Assembly (NCBI GenBank): GCA_030267965.1
Contig: BRYA01000549.1
Location: forward strand, 18,569 to 31,776
Reading direction: 5' to 3'
Length of the DNA: 13,208 bases
Source: Triparma columacea
Lineage: Eukaryota; Sar; Bolidophyceae; Parmales; Triparmaceae
Position numbers and translations under genes: made by a program. The notes under the pieces were generated by a model. The model searched no databases. It was not told where the DNA came from and saw only the letters and a list, made by a program, of their open reading frames with translations. Positions 2,863 through 12,244 of the stretch are shown piece after piece. Within the stretch, counting starts at the first letter, position 1; each line of letters opens with the position of its first letter.

Positions 2863-4353
2863 ATGAAGTCACTAGTCGCTTTGTTAGCTGCTTCGCTGCT
2901 AGTTTTGGTACTACTCGTCATCACTACCCACGGGACTGATAAATCGCTGAGGTCCCCTTCAAGAGGCCTTTCTGACAGCACCAGCATGGATGTGTTGAAA
3001 GAAGTCAACAAAGCAACCACTTCTGTTGAGGCATCCCAGGGGGGTGCATTGGCCACTCCTTATTTTGCTAGTTCTAGGAAGAGCAAGAAGGGCAAGAAGG
3101 GCAAGAAGGGCAAGAAGGCCAAGAAGGCCAAGAAGGGAAAAAACAAGTCGCCAAACCCTTGGATAGGTCGTAGTATATATTTCGTCATGACCGATCGTTT
3201 CGCATCCTCCGACCCAAACCTTCCATCATGCGTTGATACAAAGGAGTGGTGCGGGGGTAACTTCGACGGCCTGATAACCCAACTCCCATACATTGCGGAT
3301 ATGGGCTTCGACTCGATCTGGGTAACCCCACCTGTAAAACAGGTGGAGTGGAGGGACGATTACAACGGCACAGGGTATCACGGTTACTGGGCCCAAGAGT
3401 TCACTGAGATTGACGAGCACCTCGGTGGACCTGAGGGGCTTTTAAGGCTGTCTGAAGCTGTACACGAGCTCGATATGTTATTCATGGTAGACGTTGTAGC
3501 CAACCATGTAGGACCAGTGCATGGGGGAGAGGACGTTGGGAAGTTCAAGGGTGTCCTAGGAAAGGAGGGTGGGGAACAGTATAACACGCTGGGTAGGGGG
3601 GAGGGGGAGAGCATGGACGAGTACATTAAGGGAACACCTGGACCTCCCAACGCAATGACTGACGCGGGGGAGGAGTGCTGGCCGTACTACGACTTTGAGG
3701 AAGGCAAGTGCGACAGGAACATCGTGGAGAAAGGGTGGTTCGGTGACCTGGCTGACTTGAACCAAACAAACGTGGATGTACGGTCGTACTTGCTCGATTG
3801 GATCAGGTGGATGAAGGAATCTTTCTCCGTTGACGGCTTCAGGCTAGACACGGCACTCTACGTACCATTGGACTTCCTAGACGAGTTCCAGGAGGCCGCA
3901 GGTGTTTACATTGTCGGGGAGGTCGTCACTTACAACTTCACTTTACATTCTGAATACCAACAGCACCTATCTGGCGTGCTGAACTTTCCCGTGACAGAGA
4001 AGCTAGGCTCCGTCTTCAACGGTAACATGTCAGACCTCCAGGCCTTGGTCTCAGAAAGCCGGGGTGCGGGTTACGTGGACAGGAACCTGCTGGGTATCTT
4101 TGTGGACAACCACGATGGTGATCGGTTCCTAAGGAAGGTTGGGGGAGATGTAGGACTCCTTAAGAACGCCCTCGCTTTCGTGATGCTATCTGAGGGGGTG
4201 CCCATTGTGTATTACGGGACAGAGAATCCCGAGGTCGCAGGGAATGAGGATAGTAGGGTCGGGATGTGGGAGTTTGGTTATGATAGTGACACGGAGGTCG
4301 GGGAGCTCTTGAAGGCAATGAATGGGGCTAGGAAAGAGTTTGGTTTGGGGTAG
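2863..4353 (+). CDS. Secreted GH13 alpha-amylase (catalytic part; ends at an in-frame TAG)
   Basis: A 496-residue product of the fungal-type (Taka-amylase-like) GH13 alpha-amylase family, which hydrolyses internal alpha-1,4 links in starch-like glucans. Residues 1-24 form a signal peptide. Residues 73-95 are a lysine cluster (see separate entry). The (beta/alpha)8 barrel starts near 100. Visible motifs: GYHGYW 171-176, region I DVVANH 210-215 (Asn214 in the usual calcium-binding position), region II GFRLDT with nucleophile Asp329, region III GEV with acid/base Glu353, and region IV FVDNHD with Asp418. Cysteines 123/130 and 272/283 sit where Taka-amylase has its disulfides. The Lys-His pair that normally follows the nucleophile is Leu-Tyr (332-333) here, so substrate contacts may differ. 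The frame stops at TAG 4351-4353, just after the barrel, where the family normally continues into a beta-sandwich domain C. That domain is present downstream in the same frame. There are no introns and an N-terminal start is clear. Confidence 0.9.
   Translation: MKSLVALLAASLLVLVLLVITTHGTDKSLRSPSRGLSDSTSMDVLKEVNKATTSVEASQGGALATPYFASSRKSKKGKKGKKGKKAKKAKKGKNKSPNPWIGRSIYFVMTDRFASSDPNLPSCVDTKEWCGGNFDGLITQLPYIADMGFDSIWVTPPVKQVEWRDDYNGTGYHGYWAQEFTEIDEHLGGPEGLLRLSEAVHELDMLFMVDVVANHVGPVHGGEDVGKFKGVLGKEGGEQYNTLGRGEGESMDEYIKGTPGPPNAMTDAGEECWPYYDFEEGKCDRNIVEKGWFGDLADLNQTNVDVRSYLLDWIRWMKESFSVDGFRLDTALYVPLDFLDEFQEAAGVYIVGEVVTYNFTLHSEYQQHLSGVLNFPVTEKLGSVFNGNMSDLQALVSESRGAGYVDRNLLGIFVDNHDGDRFLRKVGGDVGLLKNALAFVMLSEGVPIVYYGTENPEVAGNEDSRVGMWEFGYDSDTEVGELLKAMNGARKEFGLG
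3085..3147 (+). repeat. Lysine-cluster microsatellite in the amylase linker
   Basis: A 9-bp-type repeat (AAGAAGGGC, later AAGAAGGCC) encodes KKG/KKA triplets at residues 75-93. Lysines fall on every third residue in two registers: 75, 78, 81, 84, 87, 90, 93 and 76, 79, 82, 85, 88, 91. The pattern contains KxxKxxKxxKxxK, the form known as a pentalysine cluster in diatom silaffins. It lies between the signal peptide and the catalytic barrel. Confidence 0.85.
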
Positions 4354-4614: not shown

Positions 4615-4622
4615 TGGGGGGT

Positions 4623-4728
4623 GGGGGGGGGACAGGGGAGATCGAGATCATAGCAGAAGGTTGCGTCGTCTTTACGCTTGACTCAGAAGGAGCGCTTGCC
4701 TGACGGTCTAATAACAACGAAAATGATA
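4623..4728. repeat. Dispersed non-coding repeat, internally deleted copy
   Basis: A G-run followed by ACAGGGGAGATCGAGA matches the left end of the 2050-2329 copy. After about 55 nt with scattered substitutions it jumps to CTAATAACAACGAAAATGATA at 4708-4728. About 180 bp of the long copy is missing. Both copies lie just downstream of a plus-strand gene. Confidence 0.7.
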
Positions 4729-4941: not shown

Positions 4942-7152
4942 CTACTTTTCTCCCCCCTCCTCCCCCCCTCCCCCTTCTTCTTCATCATCCTCCTTCTCCA
5001 CAAGTCCGCTATTAACAACCATATTCTCGATCCTCTCAATCGTTTCCTTCTCAACATTCGCCAGCACCACGCTCTTGGTCGCCTCGCTCATGACTTCGCT
5101 GAACATGTCACCCCCCTTATCCTTCTTCCCCTTATTCCCCCCCTCCTTCTTCCCCCCGACCTTGACAACCTGCTGAATGTCGTCCCTGTCCTTCTCTGGT
5201 ACCGGCACACCCATGGGATCGCTGGAGGCTACGAAGACGACAGGGTCTTCCCCTCCAACCTTGGGTTGGTAAGTTCCCACCTCCACCTCCTCCTTATCTA
5301 CCTGTTCCTCCTCCTCCCCCGCCTCTTCGTCGAATTGCTGATCGAAGTCCTCCAGGCTCTCGGCCAGAGGTCCCGCGTTCAATATGGCCTCCGTCTCCTT
5401 GAGTTCCGCCTCCGCCTTGCTTAGCGCCTCCTGTGCCTCCTTCTTGAAAGCGTCGAGGGCGACCGGTAGGTCGCTCAGGTCGTCTGTTTCCAGCATCCCC
5501 ACGACCTCGTCGCTTAGCTGCTCGCTCAGCCTCTTGTCGTCGTCCTCCTCCTCCTCCTCCCCCCCCTCTCTCCTGCCCTCCTTGCCCATGCCGCTGCTGA
5601 CCTTCTCGTCGACCTCCTTGGCCTTGCTCTTCTCCAACTTCTTAGCCTCCATGACCCTCTTCCGTTCCTCCTCCAGTTCCATCTCCTCCAGCTCCGCTAC
5701 GCTCCACCCCTGCTCAGGTCTAATCAGGCTGTCCAGCCCTCCGTCCACCAGGCGTTGGCTGTCCCACGGCTGCACCTCGAATCCTCTAAGCCATCTAACC
5801 GACCCTGCGTTAGACTCTGCGATAAGTGTGTCGACGACGAGGGGATCGTCCCCAGCTCCGTAGTTCTCGTTATCGTACGGGTCCAAGAACTGCTTCGCCA
5901 GCCCCAGGAGTCCGCTGTAGAAGAGCGTTAATAGTCCGCACCCAAGGACACCCAGACCAGCACCCATCCCAGACCCGAACGCCATGGCCGGGTACAGCCA
6001 AAGGACGATGTCGACTAGGACCTGAACGAGGTGTGCGTACGCCAGTGGCATCCTCCCGCTAAGTTCGTCTCCAATGCTTCCATATTGCGCCCTAATTTCA
6101 TGTACCCTTTGTAGGAAGTTCTGTTCCAACCCTGGTCCCCCTCTTATAACACCTCCCTCAACCCCGTCCCCGAATACCCTAACGATCCATAGTAGTACGT
6201 TATTATGTCTCTGCGTCGCCGGTACACCTGCGGATGTTAAAGCCTCCCTTTCGAGTTCCGTGATGATTCCTCTGTCAACCATTCTCCTCATCCCTAGCGG
6301 TGTTAACAACGGCCTATGGCTCCTGCAGAAGCTCGCGTACGTAAGTAAATTGAAGAGCCTTATATACCTACTCGCCAGCAACAGCGTTTGCCTCGCAGCT
6401 TGGGTGTACCCGCTCGTCCCTATTACGCTTCCCCCCATACCCTCTGTCCCCGTTTGCACAGACGGTGCGCTCTTGGGTTCCCGAGCGGCGTGGCCTGCGA
6501 GGAGGAGACTAACGTCGTTTAGACGACCCTGGAGACGCCGGGATACTAGGTAGCACTTACGCCATAGTGCGTAGGATACGTTTAGGAAGAAGGTTAATGT
6601 GAAGGTTGTTACGCCAAGGAGCTGAGACCAGAGGGTGGGGAACTTAGACAGGGCTGGCTTGGAGGCTGGGTGGAGCTGAGGGAAGTGGGGGGGGGGGGGG
6701 ATTGGGAAGGGGCTGACTGCGTTAGCATGGATGTTTTGGGGAATCCTCATATATTGTAGCCCTCCCAACCCATCCCTTGTTTTTACCTTGAACCAGAATC
6801 CCACAGCTCCCGCGATGCACATGTTTCTTAAGCACGCCCTCCAGCTTTCCGCGAAGACTGTCCCCCTCCATTCCCTCCACAAGAAGCTCCCTGTTGGGTC
6901 GAACTGTAGTATGATTGATCTACGGGCGGAGGTTCGGACGGATTCGGAGATTAGGTCGTCTAGGAGATCTTGGGTTGATGTCGACTCGATTATTGACTCG
7001 GGGGTTGTGAGGACGTGGAGGGAGGTGGTGGTGGGGGGGGGAGGAAGGGGGGGAAGATGGAGGCGGGGGAGAAGGGTGAAGGAGGAGACAGGAGGGAAGA
7101 TTAGGAGGGTTAGGAGAGCTAAGTGGTGGAGGGGGGGGGAGGACAGAGGCAT
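4942..7152 (-). CDS. Plastid-targeted bestrophin-like anion channel with long acidic tail
   Basis: A 736-residue product. The start is placed at ATG 7150-7152 for two reasons. It begins a signal peptide (MPLSSPPLHHLALLTLLIFP, cleavage after VSS) followed by Phe25 and a Ser/Thr/Pro-rich stretch, the bipartite leader for secondary red plastids. It also lies 10 nt inside a splice acceptor. The open frame extends upstream to 7329, but only through intron sequence. The body resembles the bestrophin/UPF0187 family: a WREW segment near 92-95 before the first membrane segment (~108-122), a second at ~174-197 leading into FLNVSYALWRKCYLVSRRLQ, and a hydrophobic block at ~372-418 followed by a DPYDNENYG motif (424-432) in the place of the bestrophin acidic calcium-clasp loop. 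Family members conduct chloride or bicarbonate, and plastid ones tune thylakoid membrane potential. Residues ~483-736 are an acidic coiled coil and low-complexity tail unusual for the family. A 14-G run at 6687-6700 encodes Pro residues, so the frame depends on its length. Confidence 0.72.
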   Translation of the reverse strand: MPLSSPPLHHLALLTLLIFPPVSSFTLLPRLHLPPLPPPPTTTSLHVLTTPESIIESTSTQDLLDDLISESVRTSARRSIILQFDPTGSFLWREWRGTVFAESWRACLRNMCIAGAVGFWFKVKTRDGLGGLQYMRIPQNIHANAVSPFPIPPPPHFPQLHPASKPALSKFPTLWSQLLGVTTFTLTFFLNVSYALWRKCYLVSRRLQGRLNDVSLLLAGHAAREPKSAPSVQTGTEGMGGSVIGTSGYTQAARQTLLLASRYIRLFNLLTYASFCRSHRPLLTPLGMRRMVDRGIITELEREALTSAGVPATQRHNNVLLWIVRVFGDGVEGGVIRGGPGLEQNFLQRVHEIRAQYGSIGDELSGRMPLAYAHLVQVLVDIVLWLYPAMAFGSGMGAGLGVLGCGLLTLFYSGLLGLAKQFLDPYDNENYGAGDDPLVVDTLIAESNAGSVRWLRGFEVQPWDSQRLVDGGLDSLIRPEQGWSVAELEEMELEEERKRVMEAKKLEKSKAKEVDEKVSSGMGKEGRREGGEEEEEDDDKRLSEQLSDEVVGMLETDDLSDLPVALDAFKKEAQEALSKAEAELKETEAILNAGPLAESLEDFDQQFDEEAGEEEEQVDKEEVEVGTYQPKVGGEDPVVFVASSDPMGVPVPEKDRDDIQQVVKVGGKKEGGNKGKKDKGGDMFSEVMSEATKSVVLANVEKETIERIENMVVNSGLVEKEDDEEEGGGGEEGGEK

Positions 7153-7162
7153 TTTGACAGAG

Positions 7163-7462
7163 CTGGAAAAAGGGGGGTAGGTGTGTGTGGGGGGGGGGAG
7201 GCGGGGGTAGGGTGAGGGATGGGGTTTGGGGGGTTTGGATGGGCGGGAGAATGAGGTTGGGTGATGTTGTTGTTTGTTCCTCAGTATGGTCGTTTGGCAG
7301 CCGTTTCGTTGTTGCTGGCGTTCAATCATTGCGCGTGTCTCCGAAATGCACGTCGCATATCATATAAAGATTCGGGTTGTGGTATATTTACATCCTTGGA
7401 ACAAACAACATTCAACATCTCAAAAACTTTGCATACCTCTCCTTCTTTCCTTCCTTCCTTAC
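7163..7462 (-). other. Intron-like segment 12 of 12 (element R1), final acceptor before the bestrophin ATG
   Basis: The donor is the type a junction at 7462. The element is at 7273-7405. Windows are CGTTG (inner) and TAAAGATTCGGG (outer, 7365-7376). The 3' half is unique sequence. It is C-rich and AG-free over about 115 nt down to CCAG at 7163-7166, and the exon then reads CTCTGTCAAA-ATG. The 300-nt length matches the other segments, which supports this acceptor. Confidence 0.72.
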
Positions 7463-7786
7463 CTGCATCGTCAAATGTGTGTGTGTGTGTGTGGGTGGAG
7501 ATGGGGGATAGCGGATATAGAGTGCGATTGAAGATGTGTGTTAGGTGACTCTTCGACAGGAAACAGGAAGGTACAGTGTGAAGTAATAACAGCTTGTCGT
7601 TGTCATGTGTTTGTTCCTCAGTATGGTCGTTTGGCAGCCGTTTTATTTACTGGCGTTATATCATTGCGCGTGTCTCCGAAATGCACGTCGCATATCATAG
7701 ATAGCAAGACATTGTGGGTTATCTCTTCATCGGAACATCCACAACAAAACAAGACCTCTCCATCTCCTTCCCTGTTCTCATCTTAC
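7463..7786 (-). other. Intron-like segment 11 of 12 (element R2)
   Basis: The element is at 7610-7737, an 84-nt core with inner window TATTTAC. The outer window is GATAGCAAGACA (7700-7711). The right flank departs from the others (TTATCTCTTCATCGGAACA). The type a acceptor follows a (CA)n tract. Confidence 0.7.
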
Positions 7787-8079
7787 CTGAGTTCCATAGT
7801 GTCAGCCGTTGCGAAGGGCGAAAGTGTATTGTGTTAGGGCTGTGCAATGCGTCGCTGTTATTGTCCTTTTCACAGTTCTTGTTGTTGTTTGTTCCTCAGT
7901 ATGGTCGTTTGGCAGCCATTTGGAAGTTGCTGGCGTTAAATCATTGCGCGTGTCTCCGAAATGCACGTCGCATATCATAAGAATGCACTGTTCGTGGTAT
8001 ATTTACATCCTTGGAACAAACAACATTCAACATCTCAAACAACTTCCTGATATCTCTCCTTCTCTCCTTCCTTCCTTAC
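7787..8079 (-). other. Intron-like segment 10 of 12 (element R3)
   Basis: The element is at 7888-8020. The arms extend to GTTGTTTGTTCC/GGAACAAACAAC, the longest closing stem of the set. Windows are GGAAG (inner) and AGAATGCACTGT (outer, 7980-7991). The acceptor is type b. Confidence 0.7.
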
Positions 8080-8390
8080 CTGTATCATCAAATATGTGTG
8101 TGAGGGGGGAGGAGGAGGGAGGGGGAATGTCGAGTGCGATTGAAGATGTGTGTTAGGTGATTCTTCGACAAGAAGGTACAGTGTCAACCTACTACAGGTT
8201 GTTGTTGTCATGTGTTTGTTCCTCAGTATGGTTGTTTGGCAGCCGTTTAGATGTTGCTGGCGTTTAATCATAGCGCGTGTCTCCGAAATGCACGTCGCAT
8301 ATCATACTCAAGATGGTGTTGTGGTATTTACATCAGCGGAACAAACAACATTCTCAATCTCTTCCTTGTCCCCAGCTTACTAAGACTTAC
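8080..8390 (-). other. Intron-like segment 9 of 12 (element R4)
   Basis: The element is at 8215-8345. Windows are AGATG (inner) and CTCAAGATGGTG (outer, 8307-8318). The type c donor side carries a second GTAAG 10 nt downstream. The acceptor is type a (ACAG). Confidence 0.7.
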
Positions 8391-8696
8391 CTGAATCATC
8401 GCAAGAGCGGTAGTTGAAAAGCAAGTGTTAGGGCGCGCGGGCGGACGTGTGTTAGACAGCTTGAAATGTATCCTTCCAGCATGTGTTTGTGTTTGCTGTT
8501 GGTTGTGTTGTATGTTTGTTCCTCAGTATGGTCGTTTGGCAGCCATTTGGAAATTGCTGGCGTTATATCATTGCGCGTGTCTCCGAAATGCACGTCGCAT
8601 ATCATAGAGACAGAGACAGTTGTGGTATATTTACATCCTTGGAACATCCACAACAAAACAAGACCTCTCCATCTCATTTCCCTTTTCTCATCTTAC
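8391..8696 (-). other. Intron-like segment 8 of 12 (element R5)
   Basis: The element is at 8515-8646 with right arm GGAACA. Windows are GGAAA (inner) and GAGACAGAGACAG (outer, 8607-8619). The acceptor is type c, with two CTAAC words ahead of an AG-free tract to TTCAG. Confidence 0.7.
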
Positions 8697-9000
8697 CTGA
8701 GTTCCATAGTGTCAGCCGTTGCGAAGGGCGAAAGTGTGTATTGTGTTAGGGCTGTGCAATGCGTCGCTGTTATTGTCCTTTTCACAGTTCTTGTTGTTGA
8801 ATTTGTTTGTTGTTTGTTCCTCAGTATGGTCGTTTGGCAGCCGTTTTTCTTGCTGGCGTTATATCATTGCGCGTGTCTCCGAAATGCACGTCGCATATCA
8901 TAACATGGAAGGTATTGTGGTATATTTACATCCTTGGAACAAACAACATTCAACATCTCAAAGACTTTGAATACCTCTCCTTCTTTCCTTCCTTCCTTAC
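8697..9000 (-). other. Intron-like segment 7 of 12 (element R6)
   Basis: The element is at 8813-8943, with an 84-nt core and the shortened inner window TTCTTGC. The outer window is ACATGGAAGGTA (8903-8914). The acceptor is type b. Confidence 0.7.
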
Positions 9001-9321
9001 CTGCATCGTCAAATGCGTGTGTGAGGGGGGAGGAGGAGGGAGGGGGAATGTCGAGTGCCACGATTGAAGATGTGTGTTAGGTGACTCTTCGACATAAGGT
9101 ACAGTGTGAAGTAATAACAGCTTGTCGTTGTCATGTGTTTGTTCCTCAGTATGGTCGTTTGGCAGCCGTTTTGCAAACTGGCGTTATATCATAGCGCGTG
9201 TCTCCGAAATGCACGTCGCATATCATAAGCCTGTGAGAGCTGTGGTATATTTACATCCTTGGAACAAACAACATTCAACATCTTGAAGACTTTGCATTTC
9301 CTTCTTTCCTTCTTTCCTTAC
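9001..9321 (-). other. Intron-like segment 6 of 12 (element R7)
   Basis: The element is at 9138-9268, an 84-nt core with a 7-nt inner window (TGCAAAC). The outer window is AGCCTGTGAGAG (9228-9239). Both the upstream and downstream junctions are type a, the only a-a pair in the array. Confidence 0.7.
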
Positions 9322-9635
9322 CTGCATCGTCAAATGTGTGTATGAGGGGGGAGGTGGAGGGAGGGGGAATGTCGAGTGCAATTGAAGATGTGTGTTAGGT
9401 GATTCTTCGACAGGAAGGTACAGTGTTAACCTACTACGGCTTGTTGTTGTCATGTGTTTGTTCCTCAGTATGGTCGTTTGGCAGCCGTTTAGAAGTTGCT
9501 GGCGTTATATCATTGCGCGTGTCTCCGAAATGCACGTCGCACATCATACACGTACAAACCTTTGTGTGGTATTTACATCAGCGGAACAAACAACATTCTC
9601 AATCTCTTCCTTGTCCCCAGCTTACTAAGACTTAC
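9322..9635 (-). other. Intron-like segment 5 of 12 (element R8)
   Basis: The element is at 9457-9590. Windows are AGAAG (inner) and CACGTACAAACCT (outer, 9549-9561). On the minus strand the sequence next to the left arm reads CTGATGT, close to a C box. The acceptor is type a. This segment is the close duplicate of segment 9 apart from the windows. Confidence 0.7.
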
Positions 9636-9937
9636 CTGAATCATCGCAAGAGCGGTAGTTGAAAAGCAAGTGTTGGGGCGCGCGGGCAGACGTGTGTTAG
9701 ACAGCTTGAAATGTATCCTTCCAGCATGTGTTTGTGTTTGCTGTTGGTTTTGTTGTATGTTTGTTCCTCAGTATGGTCGTTTGGCAGCCATTTGAAGCTT
9801 GCTGGCGTTAAATCATAGCGCGTGTCTCCGAAATGCACGTCGCATATCATAGCCTAGTCTATGTCGAGGTATTTACATCATTGGAACATCCACAACAAAA
9901 CAAGACCTCTCCATCTCCTTCCCTGTTCTCATCTTAC
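9636..9937 (-). other. Intron-like segment 4 of 12 (element R9)
   Basis: The element is at 9760-9888. Windows are GAAGC (inner) and GCCTAGTCTATG (outer, 9852-9863). The acceptor is type c (TTCAG). In this copy the word before the final AG tract is CCAAC, with an intact CTAAC slightly further upstream and no AG between. Confidence 0.7.
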
Positions 9938-10221
9938 CTGAGTTCCATAGTGTCAGCCGTTGCGAAGGGCGAAAGTGTGTATTGTGTTAGGGCTGTGCTG
10001 GCTGTTATTGTCCTTGTCAAAGTTCTTGTTGTTGTTTGTTCCTCAGTATGGTCGTTTGGCAGCCATTTGGTGCTTGCTGGCGTTAAATCATTGCGCGTGT
10101 CTCCGAAATGCACGTCGCATATCATAACCGCACTCGCATTGTGGTATATTTACATCCTTGGAACAAACAACATTCAACATCTCAAAAACTTTGCAATACC
10201 TCTCCTTCTTTCCTTCCTTAC
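9938..10221 (-). other. Intron-like segment 3 of 12 (element R10)
   Basis: This is the shortest segment. The element is at 10035-10167 with the full TTTGTTCC/GGAACAAA arms. Windows are GGTGC (inner) and ACCGCACTCGCA (outer, 10127-10138). The acceptor is type b. Confidence 0.7.
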
Positions 10222-10544
10222 CTGCATCGTCAAATGTGTGTGTGTGTGGGTGGGGATGGGGGATAGCGGATATCGAGTGCGATTGAAGATGTGTGTTAGG
10301 TGACTCTTCGACAGGAAACAGGAAGGTACAGTGTGAAGTAATAACGGCTTGATTTTGTCATGTGCTTGTTCCTCAGTATGGTCGTTTGGCAGCCGTTTTC
10401 CACTTGCTGGCGTTATATCATTGCGCGTGTCTCCGAAATGCACGTCGCTTATCATAAACTTCAACATGTTATGGGATTTTTACATCATTGGAACATCCAC
10501 AACAAAACAAGACCTCTCCATCTCATTTCCTCCTTTCATCTTAC
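10222..10544 (-). other. Intron-like segment 2 of 12 (element R11)
   Basis: Donor GTAAG abuts the type b acceptor of segment 1, and its own acceptor is type a (GCAG). The element is at 10365-10495 with only GGAACA in the right arm. Windows are TCCAC (inner) and AACTTCAACATG (outer, 10457-10468). The core has CGCTTATCATA instead of CGCATATCATA. Confidence 0.7.
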
Positions 10545-10897
10545 CTGAGTTCCATAGTGTCAGGCGTTGCGAAGGGCGAAAGTGTATTGTGTTAGGGCTG
10601 TGCAATGCGTCGCTGTTATTGTCCTTGTCACAGTTCTTGTTGTTGATTTTGTTGTTGTTTGTTCCTCAGTATGGTCGTTTGGCAGCCATTTAAAAGTTGC
10701 TGGCGTTAAATCATTGCGCGTGTCTCCGAAATGCACGTCGCATATCATAAGAACATTCGCTTGTGGTATATTTACATCCTTGGAACAAACAACATTCCCA
10801 ATCTCTTTCTTGTCCTCTTTCTTCTCTTAGTCCTCCTTTTGTTCGTCCTTTTGTTCGTCCTTCTGTTCCTCCTTTTGTGCGTTCTTTCTTCACTTAC
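10545..10897 (-). other. Intron-like segment 1 of 12 (element R12)
   Basis: The first donor AAG|GTAAGTGAAG lies in unique sequence and the acceptor is of type b (CTCAG). The element is at 10658-10789. Plus-strand variable windows are AAAAG (inner) and AGAACATTCGC (outer, 10750-10760). The 5' half contains a 12-bp minisatellite (unit GTCCTTTTGTTC, 10833-10880) not found in other segments. Confidence 0.7.
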
Positions 10898-11371: not shown

Positions 11372-12244
11372 ATGCCTTATGGGGAGATGAGGTCGTATAT
11401 CGACATATTTGCGCCAACTACCACAACAATAGATGATTTCAAGGTTGAAGAATTTACATCAATGGAACAAGGTATCCTCCCCGGGTTTCAAGGAGGCGAA
11501 AAGGGTAGATGTACAGCGGGCGGTGTAGACGAATCGCAAAGCGAGGCTGATGTAAAAGAGGATGCTGTGGTAAGGCATGATCTGCTTGTTTGCCACCCAT
11601 GTGATGAGGACGTTACGGTTGTTGCTGAAAGGAAGACAAACAGCAGAGGCGTTCCAGTGGTGGGGGTGAACGGACAGGTGGCTGAGCGACTGTACGAGTA
11701 CGATGAGGAAGAGATAGACGAGAGGCCTTACCGCTGCGAACAGAGAGGATGCAAATATAGGGCGAAGCAGAGAGGCGAAATAAAGAAACACCTTGCTGAT
11801 ATTCACGATATCGGCATAACGTGGCATACATGCCCGCAAGAAGGGTGTGAATACAAGGCGAAGAGGAGACGCCACATCAAGTACCACCTTGCTAACGTTC
11901 ACGACATTGGCGTAACCTGGCATCCATGCCCGCAAGATGGGTGTGAATATAAGACCAAGATGAAAGGCAAGATCAAGTACCACCTTGCTAACGTTCACGA
12001 CATCGGCGTAACCTGGCATCCATGCACGCAAGATGGGTGTGGATATAAAACTAAGGAGAGAGGGACTATCAAGAGACACCTTGCTAACATTCACAATGTT
12101 GAAGTAACCTGGCATACATGCGGGCAAGAAGAATGTGGATATAAGACGAAGCAGAGAAGTGCACTCAAGGATCACCTTGCGAGTATTCACAATATTGGCG
12201 GAGGCAAAATAAGGAACATAAAGGGAGAAAATAAAAGGCGATGA
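11372..12244 (+). CDS. Five-finger C2H2 zinc-finger protein
   Basis: A 290-residue product with five tandem C2H2 fingers of the form C-x4-C-x12-H-x4-H and a fixed 32-residue period: Cys122/127-His140/145, Cys154/159-His172/177, Cys186/191-His204/209, Cys218/223-His236/241 and Cys250/255-His268/273. The linkers read HDIGVTWHxC rather than the TGEKP of animal proteins, a style typical of an expanded family in diatoms and relatives. The finger helices are Lys/Arg-rich and very alike, and fingers 2-4 are near copies at DNA level. Residues 1-118 have no recognisable domain and include an acidic patch (YEYDEEEIDE, 108-117). Nucleic-acid binding is likely but the target is unknown. It is divergent from the bestrophin transcript. 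Confidence 0.85.
   Translation: MPYGEMRSYIDIFAPTTTTIDDFKVEEFTSMEQGILPGFQGGEKGRCTAGGVDESQSEADVKEDAVVRHDLLVCHPCDEDVTVVAERKTNSRGVPVVGVNGQVAERLYEYDEEEIDERPYRCEQRGCKYRAKQRGEIKKHLADIHDIGITWHTCPQEGCEYKAKRRRHIKYHLANVHDIGVTWHPCPQDGCEYKTKMKGKIKYHLANVHDIGVTWHPCTQDGCGYKTKERGTIKRHLANIHNVEVTWHTCGQEECGYKTKQRSALKDHLASIHNIGGGKIRNIKGENKRR

Follow-up and report, generated by a model that had tools for sequence, protein, structure and literature searches.

In the leader of a predicted bestrophin ion-channel gene of the marine microalga Triparma columacea, 12 intron-like units were found joined acceptor to donor, each with one copy of an element resembling a box C/D RNA; judging from their sequence, these units are probably removed by recursive splicing, with release of one likely guide RNA from each. 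The window (i.e., the whole stretch of 13,208 nt that was analysed, positions 18,569 to 31,776 of GenBank contig BRYA01000549.1) is part of contig C485, and the genome searched for related sequences comprised 37.85 Mb in 789 contigs. Parmales, the order that includes Triparma, is the sister group of diatoms (PMC10328945).

The bestrophin leader array and its element

The array occupies positions 10897-7163 of the minus strand and consists of 12 units of 284-353 nt, joined at 11 CAG/GTAAG junctions (slash, splice boundary) that leave exons of zero length. The first donor bases of the inner junctions were at 10544, 10221, 9937, 9635, 9321, 9000, 8696, 8390, 8079, 7786 and 7462, the external donor was at 10897 and the external acceptor ended at 7163, directly before a bestrophin exon that starts at 7162 and carries its ATG at 7152, ten bases into the exon. 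On both strands of the window, YAGGTAAG was present only at the 11 array junctions, compared with a mean of 0.62 and a maximum of 3 occurrences in 200 dinucleotide shuffles, and CTAAC was noted 46-77 nt upstream of 11/11 inner acceptors, within AG-free stretches of 51-84 nt. These results bear out the original prediction, made from the letters of this DNA, of twelve head-to-tail introns before the bestrophin ATG, of inner junctions that combine CTAAC and an AG-free tract with a YAG abutting GTAAG, and of an external donor at 10897 with an external acceptor 10 nt ahead of the start codon.

The RNA-like cargo of the units was overlooked in that prediction and is the probable reason for the introns. 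Each of the 12 units contains one copy of an element on the same strand as the splice sites, and a search of the window with a covariance model built from 50 copies, including these 12, returned, at E values of up to 1, exactly the same 12 minus-strand copies and no others. From the GTTCC strand of its terminal stem to the partner GGAAC, the element spans 124-128 nt (measured in the 8/12 units that lack a second GGAAC). The first half of the element consists of the terminal stem, 3 bases, GATG or GAAG (C box), a 12-nt variable segment (V1), a D'-like TATGATAT and a near-invariant hairpin of 26 nt, and the second half consists of a C'-like (A/T)ATGAT, a small GCCA/TGGC hairpin with a 5-nt variable segment (V2) in its loop, a constant stretch, a D box (CTGA) and the closing stem. 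In a box C/D small nucleolar RNA (snoRNA), a kink-turn is formed by the terminal stem together with box C (RUGAUGA) and box D (CUGA), and an antisense guide is located just 5' of D or D'; such RNAs are bound by Snu13/15.5K, Nop56/58 and fibrillarin, and their targets are 2'-O-methylated. Judged by sequence layout alone, the arrangement of the element is that of a box C/D RNA. The units of the array are as follows.

Unit 1, positions 10545..10897, minus strand: external donor GTAAGT at 10897, element copy and acceptor CAG; V1 at 10750-10761
Unit 2, positions 10222..10544, minus strand: V1 at 10457-10468
Unit 3, positions 9938..10221, minus strand: V1 at 10127-10138
Unit 4, positions 9636..9937, minus strand: V1 at 9852-9863
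Unit 5, positions 9322..9635, minus strand: V1 at 9549-9560
Unit 6, positions 9001..9321, minus strand: V1 at 9228-9239
Unit 7, positions 8697..9000, minus strand: V1 at 8903-8914
Unit 8, positions 8391..8696, minus strand: V1 at 8607-8618
Unit 9, positions 8080..8390, minus strand: V1 at 8307-8318
Unit 10, positions 7787..8079, minus strand: V1 at 7980-7991
Unit 11, positions 7463..7786, minus strand: V1 at 7700-7711
Unit 12 (last), positions 7163..7462, minus strand: the 3' flank is peculiar to this unit and has no CTAAC, and the external acceptor TTCCAG ends at 7163; V1 at 7365-7376

The element family and its arrays in the genome

The array is not a peculiarity of a single leader. The 26-nt hairpin, with up to 3 mismatches allowed, had 357 matches in the genome as opposed to 0 in the control, and further arrays were present on other contigs. 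The element was read at 237 of the 357 matches and the other 120 were left unread; family statistics given here are based on up to 238 copies, with one hairpin that lacks the remainder of the element (L021-1500) excluded from V1 counts. Information content, flank-identity pairs, V1-flank pairing and conservation at 107 junctions were determined on a smaller set that misses some copies with hairpin mismatches.

The box C/D likeness of the window copies extended to the family. With TTCC and C[TC]GAGG as requirements, boxes were parsed in 227 of 238 copies and not in the other 11. Three bases followed by GATG or GAAG (i.e., a C box at a 3-nt offset) were noted in 220 of the 227 parsed copies, and a D box with the sequence CTGA in 226. 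Among GATG copies, the base after the box was T with A before the D box in 126 copies, and in one more with CCGA, and G with C in 2/2. V1 was located directly 5' of an exact TATGATAT in 219 of 238 copies; the UAUGA at this site differs from the CUGA of box D, and both the D'-like and C'-like boxes are degenerate.

Copies of the element were regularly associated with predicted introns. A donor-like GTRWG preceded 189 of the 193 copies with enough flank, at a distance of up to 180 nt and on the strand of the copy, and at 15 loci with open frames, a donor and an acceptor flanked each single copy or small cluster of copies; at single-copy loci such as L043, open frames flank the predicted intron on both sides. 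Copies at most 450 nt apart were counted as close neighbours, which gave 165 pairs. No exon lies between the members of 163 pairs, and the other two pairs have predicted exons between them; one of these exons (in L009) resembles the start of RlmN in a by-eye reading of its translation. YAG/GTRNG joined 162 of the 165 pairs, and A was present at position +3 in 162 and at position +4 in 161; the remaining three were one CAG/GTAAAG and the two with predicted exons. CTAAC was found within 90 nt before the acceptor at 156 of the 162 junctions, and junctions were spaced approximately 310 nt apart. The longest array read, on contig C66, contains 42 units; YAGGTAAG occurs once, and once only, in every one of the 41 gaps between them and is absent from the opposite strand. 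At locus L056 (contig C87), the exon 3' of a 15-unit array resembles an OsmC-type protein, again in a by-eye reading of the letters.

Across 107 junctions, positions next to the splice boundary were conserved at levels that ranged from 34 to 97%, with retention of AG/GTAA, as would be expected if each junction were under selection for function in splicing. The ratchet-splicing signature claimed for the leader is to this extent present in its architecture and in the persistence of AG/GTAA while neighbouring positions drift; recursive splicing itself stays a prediction. Acceptor and donor sides traveled together as types, with GTAAGGA after 70 of 73 type-B acceptors and GTAAGAT after 68 of 83 acceptors of types A and D, which suggests that arrays expand through core-to-core exchange rather than through insertion of whole introns. 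Growth of this kind, with junction flanks inherited as blocks, would also copy a junction passively, which lends some weight to the alternative that the 3.7-kb array is removed as a single intron from 10897 to 7163 and that the inner junctions are relics of tandem intron duplication. Relics should, however, decay like their flanks, whereas AG/GTAA was kept among far more variable neighbours and a single YAGGTAAG persisted in 41/41 gaps of the C66 array. Removal as a single intron is on balance unlikely.

Since long tandem repeats are prone to assembly errors, and the C66 array stops 0.2 kb short of the end of its contig, an artefact of assembly, or chance, was also considered as a source of the arrays. 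The arrays are very improbable on such grounds: nearly every copy can be told apart by a different V1, and the family recurs elsewhere, among the predicted proteins of JGI and ENA contigs (12 proteins). These 12 are antisense read-through of the element family, with approximately 20 copies by motif, and a peptide in 8 of them was interpreted as an antisense zero-length junction. A shorter protein query yielded no candidate, and the exact 26-nt hairpin had 0 matches in collections of viral and prokaryote contigs, which may omit the records of this genome. A separate repeat of the form CTAACTC...TGTCACAGGTAAG, which likewise ends in CAGGTAAG and belongs to another family, was noted on contigs C84, C276, C280, C285, C357, C368, C380, C450 and C480.

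Conserved hairpin and hypervariable segments

Substitutions in the 26-nt hairpin were examined in 32 copies with 1-4 changes. Pairing on the sense strand was preserved in 19 of the 21 stem pairs that had changed, 17 by conversion to G-U or U-G, a kind of pair that points to the sense strand, and 2 by double changes that restored pairing, while 2 pairs were broken; by chance, a random one-sided change would keep pairing in 7 of 42 cases. From these sequence comparisons, the hairpin appears to evolve like a sense-strand RNA.

V1, in contrast to the scaffold that carries it, differed in almost every copy. A clean V1 was obtained from 233 of 238 copies, with 231 of the 233 distinct, and the information content per position was 0.00-0.22 bits (160 copies). 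The distribution of Hamming distances among 206 copies departed from a column shuffle only by three pairs at distances of 0-1 and by a slight excess at a distance of 4 (93 vs 75). Distances of 2 and 3 were not in excess (1 and 15 vs 1.5 and 12.9 by shuffle), so that V1 apparently changes in blocks. Words common to 95 distinct V1s were more frequent than expected (19 pairs vs 12.2 +/- 3.7 for 7-mers and 9 vs 2.85 +/- 1.35 for 8-mers), and V1s are therefore not perfectly random. Flanks of 45 nt on the upstream side and 110 nt on the downstream side were compared among 180 copies, and in 39 pairs their identity was 90% or more; within these pairs, V1 differed at 8.92 of 12 positions, as compared with 8.78 among all 206 copies, while the 48 constant positions differed by 1.59. 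Thus, V1 changes far faster than the sequences on either side of it. Tandem-repeat noise was ruled out as a source of this pattern, since segments of constant length but fully variable sequence are embedded in the fixed cores.

V2 was likewise hypervariable and able to change without V1, as seen from two units of L064 that differ by a single base in V1 and have V2 loops unlike in both sequence and length. Conversely, two pairs of copies have identical V1 and V2, and in the L056 pair this identity is accompanied by five base differences in the scaffold and by different flanks. Similarly, a copy in the metagenome protein P0129 shares a four-residue V1 and V2 peptide with T. columacea copy L087-565 in spite of different flanks, a single case at the protein level; the eight other V1s of P0129 that are readable in the same frame are absent from the 210 translated V1s of T. 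columacea, a set that excludes the 120 of 357 matches left unread. Shared V1 and V2 are a hint of conservation. Base pairing between V1 and V2, suggested by a correlation of V1 position -9 with V2 position 1 in 82 copies (z 5.3), was rejected because this correlation lost its high rank when 160 copies were compared. In that larger set, V1 position -1 with V2 position 4 (z 4.2, 45% pairable) and V2 position 2 with V2 position 4 were the strongest of 136 position pairs.

Several observations weigh against recursive release of a guide RNA from each unit. At the splice sites, no CTAAC was found in the 90 nt that precede the external (last) acceptor of the window array, and in one of the yeast snoRNA clusters compared below (cluster II), a nested pathway is reported to predominate over the recursive one (PMC5033589). 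In the element, the 91 copies with GAAG have no pair between the base that follows the C box and the one that precedes the D box, and no Rfam family matched the element at E values up to 10. In the hairpin, the chance expectation for preserved pairing rises to 7 of 14 if only transitions are allowed, and the same single change at one pair, perhaps shared by descent, accounts for 11 of the 17 G-U changes, so that independent events are fewer than the count suggests. Covariation of stems was not detected among 50 aligned copies, because the stems hardly vary. Finally, V1 is poor in C (19%), its complementarity to its own flanks did not differ from that to swapped flanks (162 copies), selection on V1 for being unpaired was not evident beyond composition (209 copies), and exact V1 12-mers (206 V1s) were present 5 times on both strands of 297 kb of DNA, without clear excess over the null of 3.0 +/- 1.8. 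The low-scoring Rfam hits were mostly microRNA models that fell on purine/pyrimidine flanks. Since annotation of noncoding RNA in the genome paper relied on Rfam (PMC10328945), the element family would have escaped it.

That neither accessibility of V1 nor a target signal was found is what might be expected if the element were a genuine C/D-type RNA without an antisense guide, in which V1 and V2 are unconstrained spacers that matter only in length. Under this explanation, V1 would be expected to drift with its surroundings, but it differed at most of its positions between copies with nearly identical flanks. Moreover, in two pairs of copies V1 and V2 are shared in spite of differences elsewhere, and one V1 and V2 combination is seemingly common to T. 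columacea and a metagenome contig. We regard the role of mere spacers as an improbable one for these segments.

The dispersed distribution of the family, on the other hand, recalls introners, and spread of a splice-site-carrying transposon by insertion, with a core that has no RNA function, would account for 357 hairpin matches, for similar intron units on different contigs and for a short terminal inverted repeat (GTTCC and GGAAC). Similarity from splice site to splice site, as expected of introners, was noted for many units and for single copies L040, L041 and L046, which retain family-type flanks up to the splice site, but not for single copies L043, L044 and L047, which share the core alone and are situated in introns with unrelated ends. 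Preservation of sense-strand pairing in the hairpin and two fully variable segments of fixed length within a conserved core also distinguish the Triparma family from introners and make an introner-like mobile element a distinctly unlikely source. In a term search, the main text of an introner paper (PMC9860276) had no mention of Triparma, Bolidophyceae, tandem or snoRNA.

Predicted processing, known systems and the host gene

Under the favored explanation of guide RNA release by recursive splicing, each splicing step would rebuild the donor at the leader exon, each lariat would contain one RNA, and debranching and trimming would halt at the C/D ribonucleoprotein; V1, just upstream of the D'-like box, would be the guide that pairs with a target. 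As a rule, an intronic C/D RNA is freed when its intron has been spliced out and debranched and the RNA is trimmed back to the ends that proteins protect, and two C/D RNAs in one intron may yield composite RNAs (PMC11028025). For this reason, one RNA per intron would be useful, and abutting splice sites would provide for it without exons. With no exon required, an unlimited number of guide introns could be stacked in one gene and the mRNA would be unchanged.

The closest parallel is with the C/D snoRNA polycistrons of Candida and Debaryomyces, in which C/D RNAs are located in adjoining introns with an exon of zero or one base between them (PMC5033589). Recursive splicing with a zero-size exon is one of two pathways described for cluster II (snR57-snR55-snR61) of C. 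parapsilosis and relatives and is required for cluster III (snR41-snR70) of D. hansenii (PMC5033589). Zero-length exons are thus not a feature of very long animal introns alone, with which recursive splicing was mainly associated in the original prediction. These yeast clusters, as described in the same source, comprise two or three introns with different named snoRNAs, whereas the arrays of Triparma, for which splicing is predicted, comprise up to 42 units of one scaffold with hypervariable segments of 12 and 5 nt, inside protein genes. Scale and a hypervariable putative guide on a fixed scaffold are what is new with respect to the yeast precedent.

Large tandem arrays of one C/D RNA family are also known from mammals (SNORD115/116 and SNORD113/114; PMC11028025). 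Unlike the exonless Triparma array, SNORD116 has repeated IPW-A exons between its introns (PMC9369261), and a tendency to gene conversion and homogenization is described for the mammalian SNORD arrays (PMC11028025), in contrast with the V1 differences between nearly all Triparma copies. Zero-nucleotide ratchet sites of Drosophila and mammals resemble the Triparma junctions in that an acceptor abuts a donor, with (Y)nNCAG/GTAAGT as the Drosophila consensus, but are found in long introns, typically of more than 10 kb (PMC5126111, PMC13149111), as opposed to one site approximately every 310 nt with one RNA-like element between sites. Fungal [D] stwintrons are likewise complex introns removed by consecutive splicing reactions, but in them an internal intron interrupts the donor of a second one, and the abstract of the report concerned mentions neither RNA cargo nor a long array (PMC7138796). 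In open-licence literature on algal introners, Triparma and other Parmales, recursive splicing, snoRNA arrays, orphan snoRNA repeats and stwintrons, no array of the present kind was noted among the titles and abstracts listed.

If the units are spliced as predicted, one gene could deliver dozens of guide RNAs, exon-free, in Parmales; if confirmed, this would be a new way of packing many guides into one gene. A broader and more tentative proposal, rather less likely to be correct than otherwise by a wide measure, is that the family is a eukaryotic repertoire of guide RNAs, i.e., approximately 350 copies of a C/D-type scaffold, nearly each with its own guide of 12+5 nt, recursively spliced, diversified block by block after duplication and forming a growing library against many RNAs, whether the alga's own transcripts, transposons or viruses. 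The family raises the questions of what the targets of hundreds of different 12-nt guides are, which is directly testable in the cultured alga, and of how a guide changes completely while the sequences on both sides stay put.

The predicted bestrophin gene downstream of the array has the following parts.

Coding exon 1 (predicted), positions 6787..7162, minus strand: ATG at 7152; N-terminus alignable by eye with Triparma laevis P0003
Ordinary intron of 111 nt (predicted), positions 6676..6786, minus strand
Coding exon 2, to the stop, positions 4942..6675, minus strand: matches P0001 with 100% identity over 84% of the query

The bestrophin protein was 100% identical to the deposited T. columacea protein TrCOL_g13491 across 84% of its length, and the Pfam Bestrophin match of the gene product (E 0.00034) was under the curated cut-off of that family. 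Genes of T. columacea were predicted from a reference protein database alone, according to the genome paper (PMC10328945). The deposited model P0001 begins at a later, internal Met, and the longer N-terminus given here was read from the ATG at 7152; alignment of this N-terminus with T. laevis P0003 supports the exon placed directly after the array.

Other frames noted in the window are on the plus strand. Positions 20-1975 encode a repetitive DUF285 protein with internal repeats of approximately 72/144 nt. Positions 11372-12244 contain a zinc-finger-like open reading frame that is oriented divergently from the leader of the array and includes a tandem repeat of 96 nt at 11754-12180. An alpha-amylase frame (Pfam PF00128) at 2863-4353 ends in an in-frame TAG at 4351-4353, after which the frame is open for 86 more codons; a premature stop, a base-call error and readthrough are options for this TAG. 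The amylase frame is flanked by a 78-nt direct repeat, the two copies of which (2046-2123 and 4617-4694) are 82% identical.

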